Origin: Prauserella alba
GTDB taxonomy: Bacteria; Actinomycetota; Actinomycetes; Mycobacteriales; Pseudonocardiaceae
DNA: 64,000 bases
Assembly (NCBI RefSeq): GCF_024171735.1
Contig: NZ_JAMTCH010000006.1
Location: 186,001-250,000 of the forward strand
Reading direction: 5' to 3'
Positions 2,044 to 16,761 of the stretch are shown one piece after another (within the stretch, counting starts at the first letter, position 1; each line of letters begins with the position of its first letter). The notes under the pieces are model-generated. The model was not told where the DNA came from, searched no databases, and was given only the letters and a program-made list of their open reading frames with translations. The translations under genes and the position numbers were made by a program.

Positions 2044-2168
2044 CGGACGAACCTCCGATCAACAGAACAATATGACCGCATACCTTCAACCGGTGGAGTG
2101 AATCTGTCAATACGAACATTTGCATGACTCTGATCGTTCACATCAGGCACTCGTGCTAGAAACAGGGC

Positions 2169-3134
2169 ATGTTGACGGAGACGCTCGAGCCCGACGATCT
2201 CGACCTCGTCGCGGCGCTGCAGCTGGCGCCGCGGGTGAGCCTGCAGGTGCTCGCGACGACGCTCGGGATCTCGACGGGCACCGTCAGCAGGCGGTTGACG
2301 AGACTCCGGGAGCGGCACGCACTCCGCGTCGTCGGCCAGATCCCCTGGTGGGTCGACGGAGCCACCCCGCATCACGTGTGGATCTCCACGGCACCCGGCC
2401 GCGCACGCGACGTCGCCACGGCGGTCGCGGACCTGCCCGAGGCGCAGTTCGTCGCATCGACCACCGGCCGCGCCGACGTCTACTGCATCCTGCACCCGCG
2501 CCGGCGTGAGGACGCGGCGGAACTGCTGGCCACGACGCTGCCGTCGATAGCCGGGATCGTCACGACGCACTCGGAACTCGGCCTGCACCGATACGTCTCG
2601 GGATCGACCTGGCGCCTGCACCGGCTGACGCCGGAACAGGAACGGACCCTCACCGCGCACCGCCACGGCGCACCGCCGGAGAGTCCCGTGCCGATGGACG
2701 ACGACGAACGCGCCGTCGCCGCGGTACTGCACCGCAACGGCAGAGCCAGCGCCGCCGAGATCGCCCGCGAGGCAGGCAAGAGCGCCTCCACCGCGTACCG
2801 CACGACCCAATCGGTGCTCGACCGCGGCCTCGTGCAACCACGCGTCGAGATCGAACCGGCACTCCTGGGCTATCCGCTCGAAGCCGTCGTCTCCCTGGCC
2901 ACGTCACCGGCGTCGATGCGCGGCATCGCCACGGCCCTGGCCGACCACGAGTCGGCGCGCTACGTGACCACCGTGGCGGGCACCTCGTCGGTCATCCACC
3001 ACGGGTTGTTCCACCACGAGGACGATCTCGCGACGTTCCTGTCCGACGACCTCGGCAGGCACCCCGGCATCACCGCGTTCGAGGTGTCGACCGTCCTGTC
3101 GGTGCTGACCCGCTACTGGTCCCCGCGGCAGTAA
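2169..3134 (+). CDS. Lrp/AsnC-family regulator with duplicated HTH-ligand modules
   Basis: A 321-residue regulator, twice the size of a normal AsnC protein. It contains two consecutive modules: a winged-helix HTH near residues 10-55 (DLDLVAALQLAPRVS, then GISTGTVSRRLTRLRE) with a ligand-sensing region, and a second HTH near residues 180-225 (RNGRASAAEIAREAGKS, ASTAYRTTQSVLDRG) followed by another alpha/beta region. It is divergent from the amidohydrolase-symporter pair across a 125-bp, relatively A+T-rich gap, so it probably controls that pair and itself. The ATG at 2169 has only a weak ribosome site (ACAGGG). The gene ends 42 bp before the convergent iacF. Confidence 0.82.
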   Translation: MLTETLEPDDLDLVAALQLAPRVSLQVLATTLGISTGTVSRRLTRLRERHALRVVGQIPWWVDGATPHHVWISTAPGRARDVATAVADLPEAQFVASTTGRADVYCILHPRRREDAAELLATTLPSIAGIVTTHSELGLHRYVSGSTWRLHRLTPEQERTLTAHRHGAPPESPVPMDDDERAVAAVLHRNGRASAAEIAREAGKSASTAYRTTQSVLDRGLVQPRVEIEPALLGYPLEAVVSLATSPASMRGIATALADHESARYVTTVAGTSSVIHHGLFHHEDDLATFLSDDLGRHPGITAFEVSTVLSVLTRYWSPRQ

Positions 3135-3176: not shown

Positions 3177-4139
3177 TCAGTAGAGCTCGATGACGAGCTT
3201 GTCGGTGAGCGCGCGGGAGACACACAGCGCCATCTGGTCGCCCGCCGATCTGTCGGCCGCCGACAGGCACCGGTCCCGGTGATCCGGTGTGCCCTCGAGC
3301 ACGCCGGACACGCACGACCCGCAGATCCCTTCCTCGCAGGACTTGAACACCTCGATGCCGTTCTCGCCGAGCACGCCGAGGATCGATCGTCCCTCCGGGA
3401 TCTCGAACGTCTCCCCCGTGTCCAGTTCCACCGTGAAGGCGTTCCCCTCGCCGGATCCGGCCTCCGCGGCGACGAAGTGTTCGATGTGGACCCGCTGGTC
3501 GCCCACGACCGGAGCGAAGGCCGTGACCACCTCGGCCATGAATCCCTCCGGCCCGCAGGTGTAGACGTGACTGTCCGGGGTCAGTTCCGGCGCCAGGTCC
3601 GCCAGCACCGCGGGAAACTTGTCGCGGGGCGTGCCGAATCGCAGGTGGACCCTGTCCCGGAACTCGGCGCGGCTCTCCAGCTGGCCGGCGAACGCGGCCT
3701 CCTCGCGGGACCGGGCGAAGTAGTGGAGTTCGAACTCCGCCTCCCGCTCGGCGAGTTCGTGCGCCATGCCGAGCAGCGGCGTCACGCCGATGCCGCCCGC
3801 GACGAGCAGGTGCCGGTCGGCGTCAGGGGCGAGCGTCAACAGGTTCCGCGGCTGCCCGACCTCCAGCGCATCGCCTGCCGACACGGTGTGCAGCGCCTGC
3901 GAGCCACCGCGCGAGTCCGGCTCCCGTTTGACGGCGATGTGCAGCGACGACCGGTCGCTCGGGCTGCCACACAGCGAGTACTGCCGGGTCAGTCCCGTCG
4001 GGCCGACGACGTCGACGTGCGCACCCGCCTCGTACGGCGGGAACTGCGCACCGTCGGTCCTGGTCAACCGCAGGCTGCGGATGTCGGCCGTTTCGTCGAC
4101 CACCTCGGCCACACGTACGGGGATCCTGTGCATCGCCAT
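3177..4139 (-). CDS. iacF: Rieske oxygenase reductase, phthalate dioxygenase reductase type (IacF-like)
   Basis: 320 residues from an ATG at 4139 (a second ATG at 4133 is possible; GGAAG precedes both). Domain order is that of phthalate dioxygenase reductase: flavin-binding barrel with RQYSLCGSP, NAD-binding domain with LLVAGGIGVTPLLGM and YTCGPEGFM, and a C-terminal plant-type 2Fe-2S domain with CEEGICGSCVSG and a fourth Cys in RCLS. It passes electrons from NAD(P)H through FMN and the cluster to the Rieske oxygenase IacCD. It is the last gene of the minus-strand iac operon, 28 bp after iacE. The assignment to indole-acetate breakdown rests on the neighbours; the enzyme class itself is clear. 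Confidence 0.88.
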   Translation of the reverse strand: MAMHRIPVRVAEVVDETADIRSLRLTRTDGAQFPPYEAGAHVDVVGPTGLTRQYSLCGSPSDRSSLHIAVKREPDSRGGSQALHTVSAGDALEVGQPRNLLTLAPDADRHLLVAGGIGVTPLLGMAHELAEREAEFELHYFARSREEAAFAGQLESRAEFRDRVHLRFGTPRDKFPAVLADLAPELTPDSHVYTCGPEGFMAEVVTAFAPVVGDQRVHIEHFVAAEAGSGEGNAFTVELDTGETFEIPEGRSILGVLGENGIEVFKSCEEGICGSCVSGVLEGTPDHRDRCLSAADRSAGDQMALCVSRALTDKLVIELY

Positions 4140-4167
4140 CCTCACTTCCGTTCCCACCCGCCGGGCA

Positions 4168-4914
4168 TCAGCGCAGGTACAGGCCACCGTTGACGTCCCA
4201 GCACGCCCCGGTGACCGAGGCCGCACCCGGCGACGCGAGCAGAGCCACCGTGTCGCCGACGAACGCCGGATCCCCGAGCCGACCCACCGGGATCGTCGAT
4301 GCGAACGATTCGAGGTTCTCCTCACCGACGATCTGCCGCACCATCGGGCTGTCCTGCGGGCCGGGTGACACCGCGTTGACGGTCACGCCGCGAGGGGCGA
4401 GCTCGCGGGCGAAGACCTTCGTCGCCGACAGGACGGCGCCCTTGGAGGACGCGTAGTGGCCGCCGGTGGCCGTTCCGCCGTTCTGCCCGGCCAGCGACGC
4501 CATGTTGACGATGCGGCCGTATCCCTGTTCGGCGAAGTGCGCCCCGAAGATCTGGCACGCCTGGAACGTTCCCGAGAGGTTGACCGCCAGGACGTCGTCG
4601 AGTTCCTCCGTGGTGATCTCCAGCAGCGGTGTCGCCCGCGTGCGCGCCGCGTTGTTGACGAGCACGTGCGCGCCGCCGAAGTCCGCGAGCACCCGCGACA
4701 GCAGGTCTTCCAGCGCTGCCCGGTCCCGGACGTCCACGCCGTAGCCCCTCGCCGTGTTCCCCGCACCGTCGAGCTGTCCCGCCACGGCGTCGGCTGCGTA
4801 GCCGTCGAGGTCGGCGATCGCCACGCCGTAGCCGTGCTCGTGCAGCCGGCGCGCGATCGCCTCGCCGAGTCCGCTCCCTCCGCCGGTCACCACCGCGGTC
4901 CGTGCCGCGCTCAC
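4168..4914 (-). CDS. iacE: Short-chain dehydrogenase/reductase (IacE-like)
   Basis: A 248-residue classical SDR. Visible motifs: TGGGSGLGEA cofactor loop near residue 10, VLVNNAART, an active-site Ser in NMASLAGQNGG and the YASSK catalytic Tyr-Lys, with the C-terminal VTGACWDVNGGLY segment. It is a cytosolic NAD(P)-dependent oxidoreductase. In described iac pathways IacE acts on the hydroxylated or oxidised indole-acetate intermediate. The start is a GTG at 4914 whose GTGA overlaps the stop of iacD, indicating translational coupling. A generic cis-diol dehydrogenase is the alternative reading, but the whole gene set favours iac. Confidence 0.85.
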   Translation of the reverse strand: MSAARTAVVTGGGSGLGEAIARRLHEHGYGVAIADLDGYAADAVAGQLDGAGNTARGYGVDVRDRAALEDLLSRVLADFGGAHVLVNNAARTRATPLLEITTEELDDVLAVNLSGTFQACQIFGAHFAEQGYGRIVNMASLAGQNGGTATGGHYASSKGAVLSATKVFARELAPRGVTVNAVSPGPQDSPMVRQIVGEENLESFASTIPVGRLGDPAFVGDTVALLASPGAASVTGACWDVNGGLYLR

Positions 4915-5441
4915 AGCAGGAATCCCGCCGCCGGCACGGCGTCCTCGCTGTCGACCAACCGGACGACCTTCCGTGCGATCCGGTCACCTGCGGGCCCGTC
5001 GGCGGACAGCCGAACCCGGTGCGTCAGGTCCGCGGCCCAGATGTCGTGCCGCCTGCGCTTGTAGGCGATCAGCACCTGCGCCGAGCGCAGCACCACCTCG
5101 GTGCCGGAGACCGAATCCGGCACGAATCGCGACACCGTACGCACCGTGCGGGCCGCATCGACGGCGGCGATGGCGTATCCCTCGGTCATCCTTCCCACGC
5201 GCAACTCCCGCATGCGGGCGTCGTCGTAGACCATGTTGAGCGTGTTCTCGAAATCGTCGGTGTCCGGATCGATCGGCACCACGTAGAGCCCGTCACCGGT
5301 GAACAGCTCGTTCCACCGGACGTAGTCGGCACGGTCGAGCAGCTCCGCCTCCCGCCACACGAGGTCGATCGCCCTGGCGACCATCGGGTCGGTCGTGCTC
5401 ACGGGTTCGGCCACGGCCGCCGCCGCGGTGGCTTCAGTCAT
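4911..5441 (-). CDS. iacD: Ring-hydroxylating dioxygenase small (beta) subunit (IacD-like)
   Basis: 176 residues, the usual length for Rieske oxygenase beta subunits, which have a cystatin-like (NTF2) fold. Typical features are the N-terminal helix VWREAELLDRADYVRWNELFTGDGLY, the segment NMVYDDARMRELRVGRM and a C-terminal beta-rich half ending VRLVDSEDAVPAAGFLL. It has no metal site; it is structural and helps shape the oxygenase active site. The gene overlaps iacC by 8 bp and iacE by 4 bp, so the three are translated together. A role in indole-acetate oxidation is inferred from the cluster. Confidence 0.87.
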   Translation of the reverse strand: MTEATAAAAVAEPVSTTDPMVARAIDLVWREAELLDRADYVRWNELFTGDGLYVVPIDPDTDDFENTLNMVYDDARMRELRVGRMTEGYAIAAVDAARTVRTVSRFVPDSVSGTEVVLRSAQVLIAYKRRRHDIWAADLTHRVRLSADGPAGDRIARKVVRLVDSEDAVPAAGFLL

Positions 5442-6711
5442 CGCGCATCATCCGCTTCCACTGGTTGTACGCCGCGCGCATGCCGGTCTCATCGGTCACG
5501 TGCGACGTCGGCCATCCCTCTGCACTCGTCTTCTCCCGCGCACTGCCGCGGTTGACCAGGATCGGCATCGCGGGCTCGGCCCGCGCACCACGCTGCACGC
5601 GGTCCCAGCCCTCGGCGTCGTCCGGCGTGCCGAACCCGAACGGCCCCTGGAAGTGCTCGTGGATCCGCAGCCGCTCCCGGTTCAACGGGTCCAGTTCGGA
5701 CGGACCGTCGGGCCCGATGGCGATGTGCTCGATCACCGTCTCGTCGACCGCGACCGGCCGCAGCACCCGGAAGAACGCCGACGACATCGCCACGTTCGGG
5801 AACAGGTTGAGGTTGAAACCGGTGCCGTGCATCGCCCGCAGCAACCGGCGCACTTCCGCATCGGAGAAGGACTTCGCCAGCTCCGCGGCCAGCTCGTCGA
5901 ACCTGCCCTGCAACGGCTCACTGCCGTCGTCGACGTCGAGATCGGCGTGTCCGGGCACCATCTGCATGACGCTGTGGCCGTGTCCCAGATCGTGCGTGAT
6001 CGCCTCGGGGTCGGTCATGAACGACATCATGTCCGCGGTCTCGGCGTCCACCGACGCCATCCACGACCGGTGCACGATCGGAAAGTGGTAACCGTCGGTC
6101 GTGTTCTCGAGCTGGATCTTCCAGTTCCCCTTGAACCGGAACTGGTGCTTGCCGAGCACCTTGATCGGATATCCGCCGCCCTGCTTCATGAACCGGTCGA
6201 TCCAGAGCTTCGCGTCACCGAGGAAGTCGGCGAGGGGCTCGACGTCCTCGTCGAGGGTCGCGAAGACCATGCCGCCGTAGCTCTCGGTGCGCAGCTTCCG
6301 CAGGGACAGCTCACGTTTCTCGACGACGCCTTCGTAACCGTCGGGGTACGGAATCCCGCGCAGCGTGCCGTCGAGGCCGTACGACCACGCGTGGTACGGG
6401 CAGGTGAACCCGTTCGCGCGGCCCTGTGGTTTCTCGCAGACGCTCGCCCCGCGGTGGCGGCACCGGTTGAGCATCGTGTGCAGATTGTTCTTGCGATCTC
6501 GGGTCACGATCACCGGCTGCCTGCCGACATGCGTCGACTTGAAGCTCCCCGGCGTCGCCAGCTCGCTCTCGTGGGCGACCCAGACCCACGTGCTTTCGAA
6601 GATGGCCGTCATCTCGCGTTCGAAGATGTCGGGATCGGTGTAGAGCCGACCGGCCACGTGGTCCCCCGCGACCAGGTCCGCGGGTGCGGTGTCATCGCTG
6701 TACTGGTTCAT
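5434..6711 (-). CDS. iacC: Rieske non-haem iron dioxygenase large (alpha) subunit (IacC-like)
   Basis: 425 residues, normal for the family. The Rieske 2Fe-2S motif is intact: Cys84-x-His86 in NRCRHRGA and Cys104-x2-His107 in FTCPYHAWS. The mononuclear iron site follows in the catalytic domain as NTTDGYHFPIVHRSW, with the usual two histidines five apart; the third, acidic ligand lies further on. In iac pathways IacC/D with reductase IacF oxygenates the oxindole-type intermediate on the way to catechol. It starts at an ATG at 6711 preceded by GGAGAAG and overlaps iacD. Substrate is inferred from context. Confidence 0.9.
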   Translation of the reverse strand: MNQYSDDTAPADLVAGDHVAGRLYTDPDIFEREMTAIFESTWVWVAHESELATPGSFKSTHVGRQPVIVTRDRKNNLHTMLNRCRHRGASVCEKPQGRANGFTCPYHAWSYGLDGTLRGIPYPDGYEGVVEKRELSLRKLRTESYGGMVFATLDEDVEPLADFLGDAKLWIDRFMKQGGGYPIKVLGKHQFRFKGNWKIQLENTTDGYHFPIVHRSWMASVDAETADMMSFMTDPEAITHDLGHGHSVMQMVPGHADLDVDDGSEPLQGRFDELAAELAKSFSDAEVRRLLRAMHGTGFNLNLFPNVAMSSAFFRVLRPVAVDETVIEHIAIGPDGPSELDPLNRERLRIHEHFQGPFGFGTPDDAEGWDRVQRGARAEPAMPILVNRGSAREKTSAEGWPTSHVTDETGMRAAYNQWKRMMRDD

Positions 6712-6729
6712 CCGGCTTCTCCGTGGGTG

Positions 6730-7110
6730 TCATTCGGGGAGCGTGACGTCGTCACGGACCGTGAGCCCGCGGCCCATCCGCGCCTCGACCTTGGCGAACC
6801 GCCATAGTTTCGCGTCGCCGTCGCCGACGGGAGTCGTGCGGAACAGGTTGCAGGCGGCCTTGACGGTGTCCTGGGAGTCGACGTCGGCCAGGATGTAACA
6901 GGTCCACGGCCAGCCGTCCGACGGACCGACGAGGTGCGAGTCGTCGTCCATGTCGCCGATGAAGTCGACGCCCGGCAGCTCCTTGATGCCGTCCATCATG
7001 GACACGAAGGCCTTCCAGACGTCGCCGGGCGTGAGCCCGTCTGCGGGAAGGTCGAAGAAGTTCTGGTTGATTCCGATGCAGAAGAGCACGCGAAGTGGTT
7101 GCGCGGTCAC
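6730..7110 (-). CDS. iacB: Conserved small protein of the iac operon (IacB-like)
   Basis: 126 residues from a GTG at 7110 with a strong AAGGAGG six bases upstream. It has no catalytic motif that I recognise. The hydrophobic strand LRVLFCIGINQNFFDL, the stretch WPWTCYILADVDS and the FAKVEAR segment suggest a small alpha/beta, possibly ferredoxin-like dimeric barrel fold. It lies between the Rieske genes and iacA exactly where iacB lies in described iac clusters, and I assign it on that basis plus size. A decreasing or accessory role in handling an unstable indole intermediate is possible but not shown. It follows a short tandem-repeat spacer. Confidence 0.65.
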   Translation of the reverse strand: MTAQPLRVLFCIGINQNFFDLPADGLTPGDVWKAFVSMMDGIKELPGVDFIGDMDDDSHLVGPSDGWPWTCYILADVDSQDTVKAACNLFRTTPVGDGDAKLWRFAKVEARMGRGLTVRDDVTLPE

Positions 7111-7137
7111 GCCGGGCCTCCTTGTGGTCGCGGGTCA

Positions 7138-7195
7138 CGGTGTCGCGGGGTTCTCGGTGTCGCAGGGTTCTCGGTGTCGCGGGGTTCTCGGTGTC
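7138..7195. repeat. Three tandem 17-bp repeats plus a partial fourth
   Basis: In the 109-bp gap between iacA and iacB the 17-base unit CGGTGTCGCGGGGTTCT begins at 7138, 7155 and 7172, with one mismatch in the middle copy, and a truncated copy begins at 7189. The array sits just upstream (in the transcribed direction) of the iacB ribosome site. It is not a CRISPR array because there are no spacers. It may be slippage DNA or an RNA element in the iac message. Confidence 0.9.
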
Positions 7196-7219
7196 ACCGA
7201 CGGGTATCGGCGGCACCCG

Positions 7220-8389
7220 TCACTGAAATCCGGGTGTCGTGGGGTCCAGCCCCATCAGGACCGCCCCGGCGGAGTCGTACATGGCGGGCCCGAGGAAGGC
7301 GTGCTGCTTGGGGACGAGCGCGTCCCCGAGCAGTCGCTGCAACGGGTGGCCCCGGTTGATCGGTGCCGTTCCGGAGATCTCCACGAGATCGCCGACGACG
7401 TCGGAGGCGGTCTTCGCCAGGTGCGCCGAGGCCAGCCGCAGGTGCGCGTTCTGCTCGTCGGTGGCGGGATCGCCCGCCACGACCGTTTCCCACACCTCGT
7501 GACTGAGGTCGTAGAACCACGCCCTGGCCGAGCGCAGCGCCGCCTCGGCCGAGGCGACCCGGGTCCGGTAGTGTGGCCGGTCGGCGAGTTTCGGGGCGCC
7601 GGTCACGCCGGCGTAGCCGCCGCCGACCTGTTCGGCGTGATCGAGCGCGGCACGTGCGACCCCGGAGCCCACGACCGCGAGCACCTGCGCCGCGTACGCG
7701 ATGACCGGATAACGGTACAACGGTTCGTCCACAGTGGCCTCGCCGCCGCGGATGAAGGTCCACTCGCGCGGGACCTCGGTGTCGCGGACGACCAGATCGA
7801 ACGAGCCGGTGCCCCGCATCCCGACGACGTCCCATTCCTGCACGATCTCGACCTGATCGGGGCTGAGCAGTGCCGTGCGCGGCTTGCCCCCGGTCGAGGC
7901 GTCGCCGGGGATACCCACCCCGAGGATGTCGGCGCCCATGCAGCCGCTGGCGAACTTCCACCGGCCGTCGACGCGGAATCCGCGGTCGGTGACCTCGGCG
8001 GGCTGCACCGGGAACAGACCGCCGGCGAACGTGACGTCGGGGCCGCCGCGGTAGAGCTCGGCCTGCGTTTCGAGCGGCAGTGCGGCGAGATAGATCAGGG
8101 CGGAACCGAAGCTGGCGACCCATCCGGTGGATCCGTCCACGACGGAGATCCGCTCGATCCGGTCAAGAAACTCGGCGGGCGGCAACGGCTCTCCGCCGAA
8201 CTTCGCGGGTGTGGACGCGCGATAGATTCCGATCCGTTTCAGGCGCTCGACGAAATCCTTCGGCACGTATCGTTGCTCGTCGAACTCGGTTCTCCGGTCC
8301 TCGAGCTCCGCCAGCACGTCGTCGAAGGTGACGGCGTCGTCGCCGCGCTTCCGCGTTTCCACGGATTCGCGTACCCGCGTCTGCACCAT
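7220..8389 (-). CDS. iacA: Acyl-CoA dehydrogenase-fold flavin monooxygenase (IacA-like)
   Basis: 389 residues from an ATG at 8389 preceded by GAGGAGGAG. The protein has the acyl-CoA dehydrogenase/group D monooxygenase layout: N-terminal helical part (KRIGIYRASTPAKFGG), a beta domain with WDVVGMRGTGSFDLVVRD, and a C-terminal helical bundle ending ATTPGFQ-like (LDPTTPGFQ). It lacks an acyl-CoA dehydrogenase catalytic context and fits the two-component flavin monooxygenases that include IacA, which attack indole-3-acetate first. Reduced flavin would come from IacG encoded nearby. It is the first gene of the minus-strand iac operon and is divergent from the histidine kinase. The family is clear; the indole-acetate role comes from the complete neighbouring gene set. 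Confidence 0.85.
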   Translation of the reverse strand: MVQTRVRESVETRKRGDDAVTFDDVLAELEDRRTEFDEQRYVPKDFVERLKRIGIYRASTPAKFGGEPLPPAEFLDRIERISVVDGSTGWVASFGSALIYLAALPLETQAELYRGGPDVTFAGGLFPVQPAEVTDRGFRVDGRWKFASGCMGADILGVGIPGDASTGGKPRTALLSPDQVEIVQEWDVVGMRGTGSFDLVVRDTEVPREWTFIRGGEATVDEPLYRYPVIAYAAQVLAVVGSGVARAALDHAEQVGGGYAGVTGAPKLADRPHYRTRVASAEAALRSARAWFYDLSHEVWETVVAGDPATDEQNAHLRLASAHLAKTASDVVGDLVEISGTAPINRGHPLQRLLGDALVPKQHAFLGPAMYDSAGAVLMGLDPTTPGFQ

Positions 8390-8468
8390 TGCTCCTCCTC
8401 GTTCGACCGACTTCGACGCTACGAAGCGGCGACAGGACGCGGTATTGGGTATTGCCGATGCCGGACTA

Positions 8469-8478
8469 GGGGATTTCT
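8469..8478 (+). promoter_or_regulatory. GGGGATTTCT motif in the iacA/kinase intergenic region
   Basis: The 128-bp gap between iacA and the divergent kinase gene holds GGGGATTTCT, flanked as TAGGGGATTTCTTCAGC. The same ten-base word, and a nine-base copy 21 bp away, occur upstream of the symporter-partner gene at 15.8 kb. A weaker relative (TAGGGGAAACCCTCAAC, from 10025) lies upstream of iacG. This makes it a candidate binding site for the cluster's response regulator, by inference only. Confidence 0.35.
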
Positions 8479-8517
8479 TCAGCCCGCCCCCGGCGGCCGG
8501 CGTTCTACCCTGACGGA

Positions 8518-10026
8518 ATGCACGTCGATCCCCAGGCACCCGAGATCGCCGCCGGCGACTTCGTCGCGATGATGCGAGCCACGAAGTTGTGCGTCCTGAT
8601 CCACGATGCGGACACCAAGAACATCCTGTGGGCGAATCCGGCCGCGTGCGAGATGCTCGGCTGGAGCGTCACCGAGTTGCGCCCGCTCAAGGCCAACCAC
8701 ATGAGCAGCTCGGCCCAGCAGTACGACCGGGTGATCGGCAGGGCGTGGCTGCAGGAGGCGGTCGACAAGGGCGCCAGCAGGATCGAATGGCACTACCGCT
8801 CCAGGAACGGCCGTGTGATCCCGACGGACGCGGTCGCGGTCCGGGTGGAACTGGAACGGGGCACCGCCGTCATGGTGCAGTTCCGCGACATCGAGCGGGA
8901 ACAGCAGATCGAGCGGGAACTGCGGCTGACGACGTCCTACATCGATGCGCTGGCCCGGCACACGTCGACGATCGCGCTGATGCTCGACTCGGCCGGCACG
9001 CTGCGATTCGCGACGGACACCGCGGTGGCGCGCATCGGGGCGGCACCGAACGAGCCGTTGGGCCCGCTGGCGGAGTACGGCAGGCTGTGGCTGGAGGGCA
9101 GCCCGGTCACGTGGGACGGTGCCCTCGCGCGGGCGAACCCCTCCACCGCGATCCAGCTGGAGATCCCACAGGACGACGGGACATCGGTATGGCTGGAGGG
9201 CAGCCTCGAATCCGTACAGGACGCCGGGGACCACGCGCTGTTGATGATCCTGCACGACGTCTCCGACCGGATCCAGGGCGAGGTGCGCCGCGAACGCGAG
9301 CTCCACAGGGAGAACTATCTGGCGCGGTACAACGCGATGGGCGACATGGCGATGGCGATCGCGCACGAACTGGGGCAGCCGCTGGCGGCCGCAGGGAACT
9401 TTCTCGCGGGTGTCCGTGCCCGTGGCCAGTCGCTGGCCGAGAAGGGCGAGATCCCGGCCGCGGCCGCCTCGCAGCTATCGTTCGGTGTCGAGCGTGCGGC
9501 AGGGCAGATCGAACGTGCCAGCACGATCGTCGACGCCGTGCGCGAGTTCGTCGGCCACCTGGAACAGGTGGACCAGGTCGTGGACCTGGGCGATGTGCTC
9601 GACCAGTGCCTCCACTTCGTTCGGCTCCGCGCGGTGCCCGCCGGGGTGACAGTCACGGTGCACCGCCATCCCGAACCGGTGATGGTGCGCTGCGAACGGG
9701 TCCTGACGGGGCAGGTGCTGCTCAACTTCTGTGTCAACGCGATCGACGAGATGGCCTCGTGCGAGCAGCAGCGGCGACAGCTCACGATCACCACCCGCCT
9801 CGACGACGGGTTCGGTGTTCTCACGGTGGACGACAGGGGCCGCGGGCTGGCACACGATCCGTTCGAGGAGTCCTTCACGTCGAAGGCACACGGCAGCGGC
9901 ATCGGCCTGGCGCTCAGCTACCGCGTCATCACCCGGCAGCACGGCCGGATCTGGGCCGAGCCGCGGGACGAGGGTGGGTCGCGGTTCGGTTTCGCGCTGC
10001 CGCTCGCGACCGACGACGCGGCGTAG
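8518..10026 (+). CDS. PAS-domain sensor histidine kinase, FixL-like
   Basis: 502 residues with no clear membrane segment, so probably a cytosolic sensor. N-terminal PAS domain (about 15-130: LIHDADTKNILWANPAACEMLGW, RNGRVIPTDAVAV), a second less typical PAS-like region (about 135-240), a dimerisation/phosphoacceptor helix with His283 in AIAHELGQPLAAAGN, and an ATPase domain with NFCVNAIDEM (N box), DDRGRGL (G1) and GSGIGLALSY (G2). It is divergent from iacA and upstream of iacG. The FixJ-like regulator at 12.5-13.1 kb is the obvious partner. It probably senses indole-acetate or a metabolite directly through PAS. The ATG at 8518 has only a weak ribosome site. Confidence 0.88.
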   Translation: MHVDPQAPEIAAGDFVAMMRATKLCVLIHDADTKNILWANPAACEMLGWSVTELRPLKANHMSSSAQQYDRVIGRAWLQEAVDKGASRIEWHYRSRNGRVIPTDAVAVRVELERGTAVMVQFRDIEREQQIERELRLTTSYIDALARHTSTIALMLDSAGTLRFATDTAVARIGAAPNEPLGPLAEYGRLWLEGSPVTWDGALARANPSTAIQLEIPQDDGTSVWLEGSLESVQDAGDHALLMILHDVSDRIQGEVRRERELHRENYLARYNAMGDMAMAIAHELGQPLAAAGNFLAGVRARGQSLAEKGEIPAAAASQLSFGVERAAGQIERASTIVDAVREFVGHLEQVDQVVDLGDVLDQCLHFVRLRAVPAGVTVTVHRHPEPVMVRCERVLTGQVLLNFCVNAIDEMASCEQQRRQLTITTRLDDGFGVLTVDDRGRGLAHDPFEESFTSKAHGSGIGLALSYRVITRQHGRIWAEPRDEGGSRFGFALPLATDDAA

Positions 10027-10144
10027 GGGAAACCCTCAACGGGGCCGGTGGAAGTCTCGATATCGGCGCCCCGGCCGTCGTCGTAACGTCGCAGCAGGAA
10101 CCAGACAACGACGCCCGGACCACGCGCTCGTCGCAGGAGGAATC

Positions 10145-10672
10145 GTGTCAGAGCTGTCCAATGCCCAGCGTGAGTTCCGCTCCGCGATGGCCAAGCTGCC
10201 CGCGGCCGTCAACGTGATCACCACGGACGGCGCGCTCGGCCCCGCCGGGATGACGGTCAGCGCGACCTGCTCGGTGACCGATGCGCCTCCCACGATGCTG
10301 GTGTGCGTGAACCGGTCGAGCCGCTCGCACGACATCTTCACGGCCAACGGCCGGGTCGCCGTGAACGTGCTCGGCGCGGATCAGGACGAACTCGCGCTCC
10401 ACTTCGCCGGCGCGACGAAGGTTCCGACCGCCGAACGGTTCGCCGAAGGGGCCTGGGACTTCGGCACGCACGGCGTCCCCGTGCTGCAGGACGCACTGGT
10501 CGCGGTCGTCGGCCGGATCGTGGCCGACCGCACGCTCGGGTCCCATTCGGTGCTGTTCGTCGAGATCGACGCCGTCCACACGAAGGAAGACACCGGAGCA
10601 CTGGTCTACTTCCAACGCCGGTTCCACAGTCTTGCCACACCGTCGCCCGAGCGCGTAGGCACTGGCGTGTGA
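10145..10672 (+). CDS. iacG: NAD(P)H:flavin reductase (IacG-like)
   Basis: 175 residues from a GTG at 10145 with AGGAGG four bases upstream. It has the short-chain flavin reductase fold of two-component monooxygenases: FRSAMAKLPAAVNVITTDG, GMTVSATCSVTDAPPTMLVCVNR, VAVNVLGADQDELALHFAG and GALVYFQRRFHSL. It would deliver reduced FMN or FAD to IacA. It lies 118 bp after the kinase gene and just before a 92-residue unknown gene and the amidase. In known iac clusters iacG and iacH are neighbours, which agrees with this layout. Confidence 0.87.
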   Translation: MSELSNAQREFRSAMAKLPAAVNVITTDGALGPAGMTVSATCSVTDAPPTMLVCVNRSSRSHDIFTANGRVAVNVLGADQDELALHFAGATKVPTAERFAEGAWDFGTHGVPVLQDALVAVVGRIVADRTLGSHSVLFVEIDAVHTKEDTGALVYFQRRFHSLATPSPERVGTGV

Positions 10673-10695
10673 GCACTCATGCGAAGGAGGGTCTC

Positions 10696-10974
10696 GTGAC
10701 CGAGCGGGACGACGAGGACATCCGGATGACGTTGACCTGTTACAACGACACGCACGGATACGGCTGGCGGCATGTCGATCTTTTCGAGCACGACCGTGCC
10801 GGCCGGGAACGGAGCTGGGTTCACTGGCAGGTTCCCGAGGACGGGCCCGAGGCGGCCGACGCCGTGACGGCCGCGGTCGAGCCGCTGCTGCGGCGGACCT
10901 CTGATTGGCGGCACGGGGTGAGCGCCAGCGGCATGGACTTCTGGGTCGCCGACGCGGCATGGGACCGGCAGTGA
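10696..10974 (+). CDS. Uncharacterised 92-residue protein between iacG and iacH
   Basis: It starts at a GTG at 10696 with AAGGAGG five bases upstream. Its stop overlaps the GTG start of the amidase gene (GTGA), which supports a real, coupled gene. The protein is acidic and aromatic-rich (CYNDTHGYGWRHVDLFEH, SWVHWQVPEDGP, MDFWVADAAW) with no signal peptide or membrane segment. I do not recognise the family. Placement suggests an accessory role in indole-acetate breakdown, for example binding or coupling, but nothing in the sequence proves this. Confidence 0.75.
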   Translation: MTERDDEDIRMTLTCYNDTHGYGWRHVDLFEHDRAGRERSWVHWQVPEDGPEAADAVTAAVEPLLRRTSDWRHGVSASGMDFWVADAAWDRQ

Positions 10975-12239
10975 CCGGCCCGGCGGCACCCCGCGGTCCG
11001 TGGTCGCTGCGCGAGCTGCACCGCGAGCTCCGCGACGGGCGGACGAGCCCTGCCGACGCACTCGCCCGCTCGCGCGCGGCCGTCTCCGGCACCGAGTCCG
11101 AGGTGCAGGCCTGGGTGACGCGCGAACCGGAACCCGAGCCGCACACCACCGGCCCGTTGGGCGGTGTTCCGCTCGGGGTGAAGGACATCATCGACGTGGC
11201 GGGCTTCCCGACGAAATGCGGCACGTCGCTCCGTCAGGACGCCGCACCCGCCGACACCGACGCCGCGGTCGTCACGGCATGGCGACGAGCGGGTGCGATT
11301 CCGGCCGGCAAGACCGTCACGACGGAGTTCGCCTACTTCTCGCCCGGTCCCACCCGCAACCCGCGGGCGCCTGGCCGCACCCCGGGCGGCTCGTCGAGCG
11401 GATCCGCCGCAGCCGTCGCCTCGGGTCACGTCCCCCTGGCGCTGGGCACCCAGACCGCGGGGTCGGTGACCCGGCCCGCGTCGTTCTGCGGCGTGGCTTC
11501 GCTGGTCATGACGCACGGCCGCGTTCCCATGGACGGCACCGCCGGGTTGAGCCCGAGCCTCGACAGCCACGGTGTGTACGCCGCGGGTGTCACCGATCTC
11601 GCGCTGGCCTGGTCCGCGTTCACCGGCGACGCCGACCCCTGCGAGACGGCGCCGCGTCCGCCACGGCTGCTGTTGTGGACGGCGAAGCCCCTCGGCGTCG
11701 TCGAGGACGGGATGCGCGAGGCGATCGACGATGCGGCGCGGCGGCTCGCGGACGAGGGTGCCGTGGTCGACGAGTTCCCGGAGGAGGAGCTCGTCGCCGA
11801 TGCGGTCGCGGCCCACAAGGTCGTGATGGCGTACGAGGCCGCCCGTGAACGCGCCGCGGAACTGGCGGTGGTTTCCCGCATCAGCGAGCAGCTCGCAACG
11901 CTGCTGCGGTCCGGGGAGGCGACCTCACGCACCGAGTACGACGCCGCACGCGAACGACTCGCAGAGATCGGCGCCGCGCTGGCCCGCCTGTCGGCGTCCT
12001 ACGACGCCGTCGTGGGTCCCGCCGCGCCCGGCCCGGCGCCGATGGGCCTGTCCGCCACGGGCGATCCCGTCCTCAGCAGGCCGTGGCAGGCGCTCGGCTT
12101 GCCCGTGGTCACCGTGCCGGGGGTCGCCGACGCCGCCGGCCTGCCGCTCGGCGTTCAGCTCGTCGGACGGGAACGGGACGAGCACGCGCTGCTCGCCGCG
12201 GGCTGCTGGGTCGAACGCGCCCTCCGCAACGGCGTGTGA
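10971..12239 (+). CDS. iacH: Amidase signature enzyme (IacH-like)
   Basis: 422 residues with a complete Ser-cisSer-Lys triad: Lys71 in PLGVKDIIDV, the cis-Ser within PGGSSSGSAAAVASG (about 139-152) and the nucleophile Ser165 in TQTAGSVTRPA. It hydrolyses an amide or lactam-like bond; in iac clusters IacH is the conserved amidase of uncertain exact step. It overlaps the preceding small gene by GTGA. It converges with the response-regulator gene; the gap contains a 40-bp perfect palindrome. Other amidase substrates (indole-acetamide, nitrile-derived amides) cannot be excluded. Confidence 0.82.
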   Translation: MTGPAAPRGPWSLRELHRELRDGRTSPADALARSRAAVSGTESEVQAWVTREPEPEPHTTGPLGGVPLGVKDIIDVAGFPTKCGTSLRQDAAPADTDAAVVTAWRRAGAIPAGKTVTTEFAYFSPGPTRNPRAPGRTPGGSSSGSAAAVASGHVPLALGTQTAGSVTRPASFCGVASLVMTHGRVPMDGTAGLSPSLDSHGVYAAGVTDLALAWSAFTGDADPCETAPRPPRLLLWTAKPLGVVEDGMREAIDDAARRLADEGAVVDEFPEEELVADAVAAHKVVMAYEAARERAAELAVVSRISEQLATLLRSGEATSRTEYDAARERLAEIGAALARLSASYDAVVGPAAPGPAPMGLSATGDPVLSRPWQALGLPVVTVPGVADAAGLPLGVQLVGRERDEHALLAAGCWVERALRNGV

Positions 12240-12287
12240 CAACGGTTGCGGCGGTTCCGCAGGAGCCGCCCGCGCGTATGAGGGAGA

Positions 12288-12327
12288 CACGGCGATGCGG
12301 CGGTGACGTCACCGCCGCATCGCCGTG
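12288..12327. terminator. 40-bp perfect palindrome between convergent genes, likely bidirectional terminator
   Basis: Twenty bases pair perfectly with the next twenty, centred between 12307 and 12308 (half-site CACGGCGATGCGGCGGTGAC). It lies 48 bp past the amidase stop and 170 bp past the end of the minus-strand response-regulator gene. A bidirectional terminator is the simplest explanation. There is no T-run, which is common in actinomycetes. Confidence 0.7.
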
Positions 12328-12355
12328 GTCACCTCGGTCACGGCCGCTCCGCCGC

Positions 12356-12430
12356 TGGGAAACACCGCTCCCCCGCAGGAAACACAGCTCCCCGCAGGAA
12401 ACACAGCTCCGCCGGGGAGACACAGCCCGA
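12356..12430. repeat. Four imperfect tandem repeats of about 19 bp
   Basis: Copies beginning GGAAACAC (last copy GGAGACAC) start at 12358, 12378, 12397 and 12416; the middle two share GGAAACACAGCTCCCCGCA-like sequence almost exactly. They lie in non-coding DNA between the palindrome and the end of the response-regulator gene. There are no spacers, so this is not CRISPR. Function unknown. Confidence 0.85.
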
Positions 12431-12497
12431 AGACCGCCGCCTGCGTCGGATCGCTGGAGTGCCGCTTTGGGACCGTCGCTGCCGGACCGGACGAGGT

Positions 12498-13127
12498 TCA
12501 GACCGAGACGCGGTGCAGCAGGATGTCCCGCACCAGCGTGCCGAGCGTCTCGCACTCGGTCTTGGACTTGATGCGGGCCCGGTGGACGTCGACCGTCTTC
12601 ACGCTCATGCCCAGCTGCTTGGCGATGAGCTGACTGGACAGGCCCTCGATGACCAGCCGGAGCACCTCGCGTTCGCGGTGGGTGAGCGTGTCGATCCGCC
12701 GGGTGATGTCCCGGCGGCCCACCTGCTCGGCGAACCGTTCCCTGGCCTCGATCAGATGTTTCTGGACGACCTCGAGCATCCGCTGCGTCTGGTAGGGCTT
12801 CTCGAGGAAGTCGACCGCTCCCTGTTTCAGCGCCCGCACCGACATGGGGATGTCGCCGTGCGCCGAACAGAAGATCACCGGTGCCGGGTAGTCGGCGTCG
12901 AGCAGCCGCTCCTGCAGTTGGAACCCGCTGATCTCCGGCATGCGGATGTCGACGATGACGACCGCGGGCTCGTCGGCGTCGAACTCGTCGAGGAACGAGG
13001 TCGCGTCCGGGTAGCTCAGCGCCTGGATCCCCACGCTCTCGAACAGGAAGACCAGCGACTGGCGCAGGTCCTCGTCGTCGTCCACGATGTGCACGACCGG
13101 ATCCGGGGACGGTTCGGTCGACGTCAT
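12498..13127 (-). CDS. Two-component response regulator, FixJ/LuxR type
   Basis: 209 residues. The receiver domain has VVHIVDDDEDLR near residue 11, phospho-acceptor Asp60 in VIVDIRMPEISG and the conserved Lys in VDFLEKPYQ. The C-terminal LuxR-type HTH runs LTHREREVLRLVIEGLSS and GMSVKTVDVHRARI. The ATG at 13127 has AAGGA about seven bases upstream. It should be phosphorylated by the PAS kinase at 8.5-10 kb and activate iac transcription. FixLJ/StyRS/TodST-like pairs commonly control aromatic breakdown, which supports this reading. Confidence 0.88.
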   Translation of the reverse strand: MTSTEPSPDPVVHIVDDDEDLRQSLVFLFESVGIQALSYPDATSFLDEFDADEPAVVIVDIRMPEISGFQLQERLLDADYPAPVIFCSAHGDIPMSVRALKQGAVDFLEKPYQTQRMLEVVQKHLIEARERFAEQVGRRDITRRIDTLTHREREVLRLVIEGLSSQLIAKQLGMSVKTVDVHRARIKSKTECETLGTLVRDILLHRVSV

Positions 13128-13172
13128 CGGGTTGTCCTTCCAGGGGTCGTGGCGGGCCGGCTCCGGAGTCTC

Positions 13173-13730
13173 CTACGGTTTCATGAGCACCGAGGCCGCA
13201 GGGTAGTCACTCGCCCAGTTCTCGCCCAGTGGAGCGACGAACACGTTCTCGGTGCGGGTCCTGCTGATCCTCCACGATCCACCTTCTTTCCGGAAGGAGT
13301 TGTTCAGGCGGCTCGAGCGCAGCAAGCCCGTTCCGTCGGAGAAGAGCCACGGCTGCATGTGGATCCACTGGCCGGTCGCGGTGTCACCGTCGACCCGGAT
13401 CTGTTCGGACGTCAGGTAGTGGGCGTTCAGCACGAGCGCCGGAGTGCGGTCGGCGGCCCAGAACCGTTCGAAGTGTGCGCGGATCGCGGCGGCGCCTTCG
13501 GCCCTGCCGAACTGGTTGTCGTAGTACTCGCCCACACCTTCCCACACCGCGTCGTCCGTGTAGAGCTCCATGACGAGGTCGATGCGGTGCTGATCGCCGC
13601 GGACCCCGAACTCGGGATTGGGGGTGTCGCAGAGGAACATGTAGCGCGCCTGCAGTCGGCGGATCTCGCCTTCCGCCTCCAGCGCCTCGATCCGTGAGAC
13701 GAGCGCGTCGATCGTCGTGTCATCGCTCAT
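13173..13730 (-). CDS. SnoaL/NTF2-fold protein associated with the iac cluster
   Basis: 185 residues from an ATG at 13730 with AAGGAGA ten bases upstream. An in-frame ATG at 13778, overlapping the symporter stop, would add 16 residues. The sequence is a typical SnoaL-like cone: an N-terminal helix (IDALVSRIEALEAEGEIRRLQARYMFLCD), the helix-strand LVMELYTDDAVWEGVGEY, a central Ala-rich helix and antiparallel strands (GQWIHMQPWLFS, SWRISRTRTENVFV). Such proteins act as isomerases, hydrolases or binding proteins. It could occupy the place of the poorly understood IacI in other clusters; that is an inference from position only. Confidence 0.7.
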   Translation of the reverse strand: MSDDTTIDALVSRIEALEAEGEIRRLQARYMFLCDTPNPEFGVRGDQHRIDLVMELYTDDAVWEGVGEYYDNQFGRAEGAAAIRAHFERFWAADRTPALVLNAHYLTSEQIRVDGDTATGQWIHMQPWLFSDGTGLLRSSRLNNSFRKEGGSWRISRTRTENVFVAPLGENWASDYPAASVLMKP

Positions 13731-13774
13731 CGGTCGTGTCTCTCCTTCATCGCTGGGCGGTACGGTCGGTCCGG

Positions 13775-15322
13775 TCATCGCGTGCCCACGGCCTGTCCCT
13801 CGTCCTCGACGCCGCGCCCGGTGACCGCTTTCGTCCGGAGCATGCGGAACACGGCCCGGTCACGTTCCGCGGCAGCGCCGCGGGCCGGGGCCGCCAACGC
13901 CACGGCGATCGACACGAGCAGGCTCAGCGGCACCGTCACGAGTGCGGGGTTGCTGAAGCCCACGACCGCGGACGAGCCGAGTACGGCAGGGCTCAGCAGG
14001 ATGATTCCCATCGAGCTCACGAGTCCCACTGCCATGCCCCACAGCACGGCCCGCGCGGTCATCCGCCGCCAGTAGATCGTCAGCAGCAGGGCGGGCAGGT
14101 TGGCGCTGGCGGCGACGGCGAACGCGAGCGAGGCGAGGAAGGCGACGTTCTGGTCCACGGCGGCCAGTGCCAGCAGCACACCGACCGTGCAGGTCGCCAG
14201 TGTGGCGATCCGTGCGGACACCAGTTGCGCCCGCGGCCCGACCGAGCCGCGTTTGATGACCTGGGCGTACAGGTCGTGGGCGATGGCACCGGATGCGGCG
14301 ATGACGAGTCCGGACAGCACCGCGAGGATCGTCACGAACGCGACCGCGGACACGAGCGCGAGCAGCGCCCCTCCCCCGACGGTCTCGGCCAGCTGCGCGA
14401 CCGCGAGGTTGCCCGCGGGGTTCTGGGCCGTGATCGCGTCCCGCCCCACGATCAGCGACGCGCCGTAGCCGATCACCGGGATCATCAGATAGAACGCGGT
14501 GAACACCCAGATCGCGGTGATGGCCGACGAGCGTGCTGCACGAGCGTCGGGGACGGTGAAGAAGCGGATCATGACGTGCGGCAGGCCCAGCACGCCGAGC
14601 ACCAGACCGAACACCTGGGACAGCTGGTCGAATCCGGCCAGCCCCGACTCCCTGCCGGGTGCGACGGCCTCCTCGCCGAACGTCTCGAACGCGGCCTGGA
14701 AAACGCCCAACGGGTTGCCGCCGTAGCGGACGAGCACCAGCACGAACAGGGTGACCGCGCAGGCCAGCATCAGCGTGGTCTTCACGATCTGGATCCAGCT
14801 CGTGGCCAGCATGCCGCCGAGCATGGTGTAAACGGTCGTCAGGCCGCCGATCACCAGTACGGCCACGGTGTAGTCGATCCCGAACAGGAGCCGTACGAGC
14901 AGCGCCGCGCCGACGAACTGCGCCACGAGGTAGAGAGTGCTGATGATCAGCGTGCTGCCCGCCATGACGGCCCGCACGCTGCGCCCGTCGAACCGGGTGG
15001 CCAGCACGTCCGCGAGGGTGAACCGGCCGAGGTTGCGCAGTGGTTCGGCCACCAGCAGCAGCGCGAGCACGTACGCGACGGGCACGAACACCGCGAGATA
15101 GAAGCCGCTGAAGCCGGACAGGGCGATCGCACCGGTCACGCCGAGGAACGACGCAGCGGACACGTAGTCACCGGCGATGGCCAGGCCGTTCTGTTTGCCG
15201 GTGAGCTGACCGTCGGCGACGAAGTGGTCCGCGGCCGACGTGCCCCGCCGCGCCGCGACGTAGGTGATGACCAGCGTGAGCCCCACCAGGACGCTGAAGA
15301 TGATCGCGGAGTAGATGTTCAT
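13775..15322 (-). CDS. Sodium:solute symporter, ActP/cation-acetate type
   Basis: 515 residues with about 13 hydrophobic segments in the SSS pattern: an N-terminal helix, then QNGLAIAGDYVSAASFLGVTGAIALSGFSGFYLAVF, the conserved FTLADVLATRFDGRSVR, GGMLATSWIQIVKTTLML, and GLPHVMIRFFTVPDARAARSS typical of ActP-like monocarboxylate symporters. The stop overlaps the next gene's possible start, and its own start overlaps the DUF485 gene (ATGA). Placement next to the iac genes suggests it imports indole-3-acetate or a related acid; acetate or another carboxylate is equally consistent with the family. Confidence 0.85.
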   Translation of the reverse strand: MNIYSAIIFSVLVGLTLVITYVAARRGTSAADHFVADGQLTGKQNGLAIAGDYVSAASFLGVTGAIALSGFSGFYLAVFVPVAYVLALLLVAEPLRNLGRFTLADVLATRFDGRSVRAVMAGSTLIISTLYLVAQFVGAALLVRLLFGIDYTVAVLVIGGLTTVYTMLGGMLATSWIQIVKTTLMLACAVTLFVLVLVRYGGNPLGVFQAAFETFGEEAVAPGRESGLAGFDQLSQVFGLVLGVLGLPHVMIRFFTVPDARAARSSAITAIWVFTAFYLMIPVIGYGASLIVGRDAITAQNPAGNLAVAQLAETVGGGALLALVSAVAFVTILAVLSGLVIAASGAIAHDLYAQVIKRGSVGPRAQLVSARIATLATCTVGVLLALAAVDQNVAFLASLAFAVAASANLPALLLTIYWRRMTARAVLWGMAVGLVSSMGIILLSPAVLGSSAVVGFSNPALVTVPLSLLVSIAVALAAPARGAAAERDRAVFRMLRTKAVTGRGVEDEGQAVGTR

Positions 15323-15633
15323 GACCGCTCCTTCCAGGCCTGCTCCGACGCCCGGTCGAGCTCACGGGCACGCACGGAGTACCGGGCCGCGGCGAAGAGT
15401 GCGACGGGGAACTGGACGAACGCGTAGATCCACGCCCACGTGAGGCCACTACCGACCACGCCGTCCAGCACATCCGTGAACTGCCCGAGAATGGGCAGCG
15501 GGAAGAAGAACAAACACGTCAGTGCGGAAAGCTTTCCCACGAGCCGGGTCCGTTTCCGAACCAGGTCGTCGAAAACGTTTCGTTCCGTTTCGGCCGGCTC
15601 GGCTCCTGGCACGCCGGGATCGTCGTGCGGCAT
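15319..15633 (-). CDS. DUF485 membrane protein, symporter partner
   Basis: 104 residues from an ATG at 15633 with AGAAGGGG upstream. A charged N-terminus (DDLVRKRTRLVGKL) is followed by two membrane helices (SALTCLFFFPLPILGQF and LTWAWIYAFVQFPVALFAA) and a charged tail. This is the YjcG/DUF485 layout, and these proteins are almost always encoded directly before an ActP-like symporter, as here (4-bp overlap). It probably supports assembly or activity of the permease. Confidence 0.82.
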   Translation of the reverse strand: MPHDDPGVPGAEPAETERNVFDDLVRKRTRLVGKLSALTCLFFFPLPILGQFTDVLDGVVGSGLTWAWIYAFVQFPVALFAAARYSVRARELDRASEQAWKERS

Positions 15634-15971
15634 ATCCGCGCCCCTTCTGTAAGCGGTCGAGGGCCACCGCCGTCGACCGGTACTGCGAAGCCTGGCAACA
15701 TGAACCACCAGCTCGTCATTGAGCCCTCACGGACGCAGCCGGTTCGGGTACTCGCAGAGGCTACGAACCCGCTTTCCACCTCGACAATGAGCGTTTCTCC
15801 CCTTCGGGATCGGAGAAATCCCGCCCACCGCTAAAGAAATCCCCGATACCGCCGCACGGAATCGTGTGCTGGCCGGGGTCCTATGCCGTCAGGCTCAAGC
15901 GGCCGTTCGCGATTCCGTGAGGCTGCGTGGTTCGGTGAGGGCCGTGCGGCTCCGGAGCGCTGCCGAACCGC
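15634..15971. other. 338-bp intergenic region upstream of the DUF485-symporter genes
   Basis: No convincing gene was found; the short open frames lack ribosome sites and family features. The stretch must contain the promoter of the minus-strand DUF485-symporter-SnoaL transcription unit and the downstream end of the IclR gene. It is less G+C-rich around 15790-15850, where direct repeats of AGAAATCCC occur. Confidence 0.7.
15814..15844 (-). promoter_or_regulatory. Two direct AGAAATCCC repeats 21 bp apart upstream of DUF485-symporter
   Basis: AGAAATCCC at 15814-15822 and AGAAATCCCC at 15835-15844 lie on the same face of the helix, two turns apart. Read in the direction of the symporter genes they are GGGATTTCT/GGGGATTTCT, the word also found between iacA and the kinase gene. 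They are candidate half-sites of an activator that joins the permease to the iac regulon. Confidence 0.4.
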
Positions 15972-16736: not shown

Positions 16737-16744
16737 GTCGCCGC

Positions 16745-16761
16745 CTTTCACTGAGTGAAAG
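16745..16761. promoter_or_regulatory. Probable IclR operator (17-bp inverted repeat)
   Basis: CTTTCAC-TGA-GTGAAAG: seven-base perfect arms with a 3-base centre. It lies in the 59-bp divergent gap between the IclR gene and pcaH and overlaps the ribosome-site region of the IclR gene. One site could therefore control both directions. Symmetry and position are seen; binding is inferred. Confidence 0.7.

Follow-up and report, generated by a model that had tools for sequence, protein, structure and literature searches.

The window, a stretch of 64,000 nucleotides (positions 186,001 to 250,000) from contig NZ_JAMTCH010000006.1 of Prauserella alba (family Pseudonocardiaceae), very probably carries a full iac cluster of the actinomycete type. 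The cluster would allow growth on indole-3-acetate (IAA) and would have a two-component system of its own as regulator. As predicted from the genes, the cluster spans positions 3177 to about 15850 and comprises three presumed transcription units (Table 1): IacF, E, D, C, B and A on the minus strand (3177-8389); a PAS histidine kinase, IacG, the 92-residue protein ORF92 and IacH on the plus strand (8518-12239); and a DUF485 protein, an ActP/MctC-like symporter, a SnoaL protein (IacI) and a FixJ-like regulator on the minus strand (15633 down to 12498). A first-pass annotation had recognised iacA to iacH in this actinomycete, and all genes it named are open frames of the right families; the sensor kinase that it placed between divergent halves is the PAS histidine kinase at 8518-10026, divergent from iacA. 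Its two halves are replaced here by three units, and the cluster end was moved to about 15850 because the FixJ-like regulator and the DUF485/SSF transporter pair are counted as members. The value added lies in the anatomy of the locus, for which the sequence comparisons give good support: identification of IacI, discovery of ORF92, which the first-pass annotation had missed, and recognition of a putative regulon that has its own two-component system and a conserved 19-bp box. The genome comprises 5.61 Mb in 11 contigs, and the nearest named relatives at the iac locus are P. salsuginis and P. halophila.

Identities of the Iac proteins were determined against the iac cluster of Acinetobacter baumannii DS002 (locus L010). 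The iac marker genes iacA, iacB and iacI (Conway 2022, PMC9613470; papers are cited here for the available parts of their text) are all in the window (46%, 57% and 38-40%), iacC and iacD are adjacent, and iacE, F, G and H are also present. Having iacA, B and I speaks for an iac rather than an iad cluster; the latter leads from IAA to anthranilate and has the exclusive markers iadA and iadB. The SnoaL gene had been regarded as an extra. This was rejected on account of its match to the A. baumannii gene between iacB and iacC; in Marinomonas, iacI is the gene in that position, annotated as a polyketide cyclase (PMC11373566), and the Rhodococcus YL-1 counterpart stands beside dioxygenase genes. 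The SnoaL gene being IacI, the Iac set is therefore A to I, nine of nine. Motifs are intact in all four enzymes checked: the Rieske motif and D..H....H in IacC, TGGGSGLG, NNA and YxxxK in IacE, the four-Cys motif in IacF, the proposed electron donor of IacCD, and GGSSS and GVPLGVKD in IacH. IacA scores 150 bits with the HsaA model, far under the cut-off of 450.

IacB gave no Pfam or NCBIfam match at E 0.001, and comparison with PDB by sequence gave a single chance match (E 0.31). Its structure model (predicted local distance difference test, pLDDT, 86) has the predicted order beta-alpha-beta-beta-alpha-beta. Foldseek ranked SnoaB best (E 1.2e-3), and its best matches also include MhuD, methylmuconolactone isomerase and YgiN (E 1e-3 to 3e-3), with template modelling (TM) scores of 0.46-0.55; in VIA, Z reached 8.5, in the range of common folds, and ribosomal S6 came first. 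By Foldseek, the predicted fold may be akin to the dimeric alpha/beta barrels of SnoaB-like cofactor-free oxygenases and of muconolactone isomerases. This is a likeness of fold only, and at most a hint that IacB assists in oxygenation or isomerisation.

Growth on IAA is likely, because the full iac set is joined by catA elsewhere in the genome and by a pca operon next door. catA at C1:516 kb scores 463 bits (NCBIfam cut-off 404) and the muconate cycloisomerase-like gene beside it 196 bits, under the cut-off of 335; both lie within C1:515-521 kb, together with benA, which is over its cut-off. pcaHGBC-like genes are found about 1 kb from the iac cluster. A plausible route to central metabolism, with the step order taken from work on proteobacterial Iac proteins, would start with import of IAA by the sodium symporter and its DUF485 partner. 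IacA with IacG would then hydroxylate IAA, IacE would form dioxindole-3-acetate, IacC, D and F together with IacI, IacB and IacH would convert this to catechol, and the catechol would enter the cat route, whose genes lie elsewhere in the genome. It is considered unlikely that the cluster serves another indole compound of this kind, be it indole-3-propionate, indole-3-butyrate or a product of tryptophan breakdown, with IAA as a side substrate. IacA of Caballeronia glathei oxidised indole-3-propionate, -butyrate, -lactate and other indoles, its IacE acted on the propionate and butyrate products and not on the lactate product (PMC7225977), and a kynureninase gene lies 9 kb from the cluster of the window; yet the full A-I set matches proteobacterial clusters shown to act on IAA, no box above 9 bits occurs near the kynureninase gene, and degradation of indole-3-propionate or -butyrate had never been reported according to the available part of PMC7225977.

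Table 1. Features of the predicted iac locus, positions in the window; percentages are amino acid identities.
Feature	Position	Strand	Remarks
iacF-like PDR/VanB oxidoreductase, plant-type 2Fe-2S domain	3177..4133	-	Fer2, NAD_binding_1; 35% A. baumannii, 51% Streptomyces NBC_00564; start approximate
iacE-like short-chain dehydrogenase	4168..4914	-	adh_short_C2; 48% A. baumannii, 56% Streptomyces NBC_00564
iacD-like Rieske dioxygenase beta subunit	4911..5441	-	Ring_hydroxyl_B; 37% A. baumannii
iacC-like Rieske dioxygenase alpha subunit	5434..6711	-	Rieske, Ring_hydroxyl_A; 55% A. baumannii, 76% Rhodococcus YL-1
iacB, iac marker gene	6730..7110	-	57% A. baumannii
iacA-like flavin-dependent IAA monooxygenase	7220..8389	-	Acyl-CoA_dh_2; 46% A. 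baumannii over 97%
Box site 1, ACTAGGGGATTTCTTCAGC	8465..8483	+	28.0 bits; iacA/kinase gap; in training set
PAS histidine kinase, apparently cytoplasmic, proposed IAA sensor	8518..10026	+	PAS_9, HATPase_c
Box site 2, CGTAGGGGAAACCCTCAAC	10022..10040	+	19.8 bits; before iacG; not in training set
iacG-like flavin reductase	10145..10672	+	Flavin_Reduct; 62% Streptomyces NBC_00564; 27-30% A. baumannii (30% over 45% of length)
ORF92, conserved 92-residue protein	10696..10974	+	In 73/80 iac loci; stop overlaps iacH GTG start by four bases
iacH-like amidase	10971..12239	+	Amidase; 29-31% A. baumannii, 49% Streptomyces NBC_00564; GTG start
FixJ/NarL-type response regulator, proposed kinase partner	12498..13127	-	Response_reg, GerE; in 73/80 loci
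iacI, SnoaL/NTF2 fold	13173..13778	-	SnoaL_4; 38-40% A. baumannii gene between iacB and iacC, 72% Rhodococcus YL-1
Sodium:solute symporter, ActP/MctC kind, candidate IAA importer	13775..15322	-	SSF; MctC model 461 bits, below cut-off of 670
DUF485 membrane protein beside symporter	15319..15633	-	DUF485; start approximate
Box site 3, TATCGGGGATTTCTTTAGC	15830..15848	-	20.7 bits; before DUF485-SSF-iacI-regulator unit; not in training set; one mismatch to TAGGGGAWTTCYTYAG

An IacB scan of a species genome collection gave 389 relatives, of which the best 80 were kept, leaving aside the other 309. This choice favours loci resembling that of the window; counts were made with 10-kb flanks, and some loci end at contig ends. 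The 80 loci comprise one from Acidovorax and 79 from actinomycetes, with genera including Amycolatopsis, Saccharopolyspora, Pseudonocardia, Nocardia, Rhodococcus, Arthrobacter, Nocardioides and Streptomyces. The genes iacA to iacI were found in 78, 80, 77, 77, 79, 68, 61, 71 and 69 loci, respectively, the kinase in 76, the regulator and ORF92 in 73 each, the symporter in 17 and DUF485 in 15. The split layout had been described as unusual, a claim that was dropped since in 25 of the 80 loci the iac, kinase, regulator and ORF92 genes are arranged and oriented exactly as in the window, transporters ignored. The kinase is the neighbour of iacA among recognised genes in 75 of the 76 loci having both, and the two are divergent in 73 of 76. 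IacB was detected in 3/7 genomes of the genus and 43/249 of a family sample. A class-wide search gave IacB in 2/394 genomes and ORF92 in one (the window's own), too rare to use, and the family sample of 249 genomes was therefore used.

Three observations on single strains belong here. The loci of Williamsia muralis (L087) and Kitasatospora arboriphila NRRL B-24581 (L091) have the same iac order and nearly equal identities to the window, which suggests recent transfer or a mislabelled genome. A Streptomyces camelliae plasmid (L008, 11016-12125) holds an IacA-like gene (61%) without the rest of the iac cluster within 11 kb. Rhodococcus PBTS2 grew on IAA, and iac genes were not found on its chromosome (PMC7002392); an actinomycete-type query might find them.

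The kinase contains HELGQPL (H-box) and the G boxes; a pattern search for the N-box gave no match, yet NFCVNAIDEM stands at the usual place. The top 19-residue hydropathy is 1.49. Regulator types were compared in 98 stretches, namely the 80 best IacB loci and 18 from plasmids (replicons of Streptomyces NBC_00564 and Rhodococcus USK13 are each in twice as separate stretches, and L121 is iacA alone). Kinase plus regulator were found in 79, a MarR gene in 7, both in none, neither kinase nor MarR in 9 and the kinase alone in 3; the MarR queries came from the Klebsiella, Acinetobacter and Novosphingobium iac clusters, and three of the seven MarR stretches had supplied queries. For the iac-linked MarR (IacR) the best of the three queries gave E 0.017 over 45 residues in the window, inside the IclR gene, which is not convincing. 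MarR was not taken as iac-defining because known iac clusters vary in regulator (LysR, MarR or two-component; PMC11676955, PMC11630574).

Among 72,556 plasmid records, the regulator query gave seven top rows of 48-59% identity (next 43%) and the kinase query six top rows of 37-41% (next 25%), and all of these replicons carry an iacA match. In replicons of Burkholderia and Cupriavidus, iac is accompanied by a kinase and a regulator of the same lineage (kinase 37-39%). A quick tree of IacA, C and E, without a mixture model, was made from 50 rows picked out of 99, reduced to 48 after removal of L119 and L122, in which one of the three proteins is missing. A branch with full support (100) in the Shimodaira-Hasegawa-like approximate likelihood ratio test (SH-aLRT) has 42 rows on one side (39 with the pair, 3 lacking it) and 6 proteobacterial rows on the other (MarR in 5 of them); all pair rows thus fall together. 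The direction of transfer is not settled by the tree, because phylum too needs only one change on it.

The box was derived from the gaps between kinase and iacA. TAGGGGA occurred in 47/74 gaps by k-mer counts, and a refined 19-bp matrix found 72/73 gaps at 8 bits and 69/73 at 12 bits (the window's gap included, one over-long gap left out), while 0/219 shuffled gaps exceeded 12 bits. In the window exactly three sites exceed 9 bits, one ahead of each unit. The iacG/kinase tandem gaps, outside the training set, have the box in 41/48. At 14 bits the 80 loci hold 176 sites, versus one site in 780 kb of shuffled control, and no site lies inside recognised genes (60-bp margins). Of these sites 69 are in kinase/iacA gaps, 42 before iacG, 9 before iacG and the regulator, 10 before DUF485, 9 before iacI and 13 before ORF92 alone or with a neighbour; 4 are adjacent without being upstream and 20 are elsewhere. 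Fifteen of the last 24 were traced: six precede major facilitator superfamily (MFS) transporters (Pfam), four hydrophobic or unscanned frames, two catB-catA (loci L032 and L056), one an aldehyde dehydrogenase and one a DctP-type binding protein, and one (L063) nothing clear. Boxes before catB-catA and MFS transporters fit a catechol-producing pathway.

In the genome of the window, the core TAGGGGAWTTCYTYAG has two sites at one mismatch or less, identical with sites 1 and 3, and the relaxed core TAGGGGAWWYCYTYAG has three, all in the iac cluster, with site 2 included. Exact matches to TAGGGGAWWYCYTYAG amount to 45 sites in 26/249 family genomes, some of them species used for training; all 26 have iacB, 42 sites are within 20 kb of it, and 0/206 iacB-negative family genomes have such a match. 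The three distal sites come from three genomes of a single genus and each precede a similar frame, one of these frames being an MFS transporter by PDB comparison. An M20 peptidase near one distal box is not claimed as auxin-linked, as its best PDB match is an Xaa-Arg dipeptidase and the plant IAA-amino acid hydrolase scored far lower (E 2e-7). A 19.4-bit site stands in the kinase/iacA gap of Cupriavidus P-10, and 9 of 11 loci without the pair have no site above 12 bits. These data also bear on the possibility that kinase and regulator control something else, such as the response to oxygen or redox state, and merely adjoin iac. The best NCBIfam models are indeed FixL (149 bits) and FixJ (198 bits); both scores are below the cut-offs (850 and 255), the top plasmid matches of regulator and kinase are all on replicons with an iacA match, and exact box cores are confined to iacB-positive genomes of the family sample, which makes control of another function very unlikely.

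In the regulon as proposed, the kinase would sense IAA or an early product through its PAS region, most likely in the cytoplasm because it has no evident membrane span, and would phosphorylate the FixJ-like regulator. The regulator would bind the TAGGGGATTTCTTCAG box ahead of the three units (iacABCDEF and kinase; iacG-ORF92-iacH; DUF485-symporter-iacI-regulator) and activate the breakdown genes. With a box before each unit, positive feedback on uptake and on the regulator itself would therefore be expected.

Several points weigh against this reading. IacH (29-31%) and IacG (27-30%) resemble their A. baumannii counterparts only remotely, and the symporter is present in only 17/80 stretches. 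Binding of the box by the regulator is proposed from co-occurrence only. Site 2 has three mismatches to TAGGGGAWTTCYTYAG, a level at which the genome has 28 matches versus 13 in the backwards control, and would not stand out, though it has just one mismatch to TAGGGGAWWYCYTYAG. With one mismatch allowed in the family sample, 7/43 iacB-positive genomes are without a site and 28/206 iacB-negative ones have at least one. Three Burkholderia loci with the same kinase lineage have no box in the kinase/iacA gap, and the Acinetobacter loci L013 (17.9 bits) and L120 (15.2 bits), on the MarR side, have a site at least 7 kb from iacA.

ORF92 was aligned in 42 sequences with 26 invariant columns. Pfam has no family for the ORF92 of the window and gave chance-level matches for 2/42 sequences. 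In the family sample it was found in 33/249 genomes, all 33 iacB-positive, and in 0/206 iacB-negative ones, at a median distance of 3.4 kb from iacB (32 genomes with both on one contig); among the plasmid records it occurs in 3/72,556, all iac carriers. Its close same-strand neighbours in 73 loci are iacH (55), iacG (46), the regulator (9) and the kinase (8). In Streptomyces NBC_00564 it is flanked by an NTF2-family gene on one side and regulator-kinase on the other, at 11 kb from iacA. It remains with the iac locus through rearrangement. That ORF92 is a spurious or hitch-hiking frame is very improbable. It is absent from 10/43 iacB-positive family genomes, four of these with a strong IacB match, which also counts against its being a regular component; four of the 80 loci have the kinase without it (L047, L069, L073 and L075, with L073 ending at a contig end), and the iac loci of Burkholderia and Cupriavidus gave no match to it. 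Against a spurious frame stand 16 silent versus 2 altering codon changes relative to P. salsuginis, the invariant columns, the restriction to iacB-positive genomes and the constancy through rearrangement. In this reading ORF92 is a small component of the locus type and most likely works with either the amidase or the kinase and regulator; the amidase step is slightly favoured because of the gene neighbourhood. Its structure model is confident (pLDDT 92.8). The fold matches were read as chance (Foldseek best E 0.31; VIA best Z 5.5, a viral glycoprotein domain) and a new fold is not claimed, and comparison of an ORF92 profile with PDB sequences gave antibody chains only (best E 0.0085), also read as chance.

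Adjacent regions of the window were annotated as well. The pca-like operon (15972-19756), directly beside the iac cluster, encodes protocatechuate 3,4-dioxygenase beta and alpha and PcaC, all above cut-off, PcaB just below it, and an IclR regulator closest to PcaR/PcaU with a score below cut-off. A tRNA-Tyr called by ARAGORN at 17646-17720, inside the PcaG-like frame, is probably a false call, as an Rfam scan of the whole window gave no match, tRNA included. The kynureninase gene (24890-26188; above NCBIfam cut-off) encodes an enzyme of tryptophan degradation. At 820-3134 an amidohydrolase gene (260 bits with the Xaa-Pro dipeptidase model, cut-off 500) is divergent from that of an Lrp/AsnC-type regulator with two matched stretches, a pair also kept beside iac in P. 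salsuginis.

An iac cluster in an actinomycete is as such not new, because predicted iac clusters in Nocardiaceae (rhizoSMASH 2025, PMC12462448) and auxin-degrading loci of unstated type in Actinobacteria (Conway 2022, PMC9613470) had already been reported. Nor is the two-component type of regulator new in iac loci, since putative two-component systems accompany iac in Paraburkholderia phytofirmans PsJN and four root Pseudomonas (iacS and a LuxR-type gene) and in C. glathei (iacS, iacY) (PMC11630574, PMC7225977). In the open-licence PubMed Central (PMC) literature, as far as its text was available, auxin sensing for degradation has been worked out for MarR repressors, and no report was found of a near-universal pair in actinomycete iac loci, of the box or of ORF92. 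With its own two-component system and a predicted operator, the locus type thus provides a candidate auxin sensor, and possibly an auxin biosensor; ORF92 is a concrete candidate for the part of the pathway from dioxindole-3-acetate to catechol, where the steps are poorly resolved, and the box is a DNA signature marking iac regulons in actinomycete genomes. As to a possible effect on plants, suggested by the first-pass annotation, the iac strains tested on plants reversed root inhibition by added IAA in mono-association, and in a complex community reversal was obtained by iad strains only (PMC9613470). A broader view is offered tentatively: actinomycetes and some Burkholderiaceae may share a second, regulator-defined iac branch, in which MarR gives way to a soluble two-component auxin sensor and, in actinomycetes, a single conserved box governs degradation, uptake and catechol cleavage. 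ORF92 would be a new essential part of it: it would either handle a ligand for the kinase or be an enzyme or chaperone that assists the amidase on the way from dioxindole-3-acetate to catechol.

Among known systems, the Nocardiaceae clusters and the Actinobacteria loci come from the phylum of the window and are alike in kind or in capacity; the available text of both reports gives no gene layout, regulator, box or ORF92. The FixL/FixJ oxygen-sensing pair of rhizobia is alike in combining a PAS kinase with a NarL-type regulator and supplied the best-scoring models, whereas the pair of the window falls below both family cut-offs and shows no sign of an oxygen regulon. The iacS-bearing clusters of strain PsJN, root Pseudomonas and C. 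glathei likewise have a putative two-component system, a likeness drawn from description and not from the IacS sequence, but belong to another phylum. With the MarR-type iac clusters of Pseudomonas putida 1290 and Acinetobacter, the window has in common all nine enzymes A to I and the same proposed route to catechol; it differs from them in the kinase and regulator found in place of the MarR repressor IacR, and in the possession of ORF92, the box and three presumed units.

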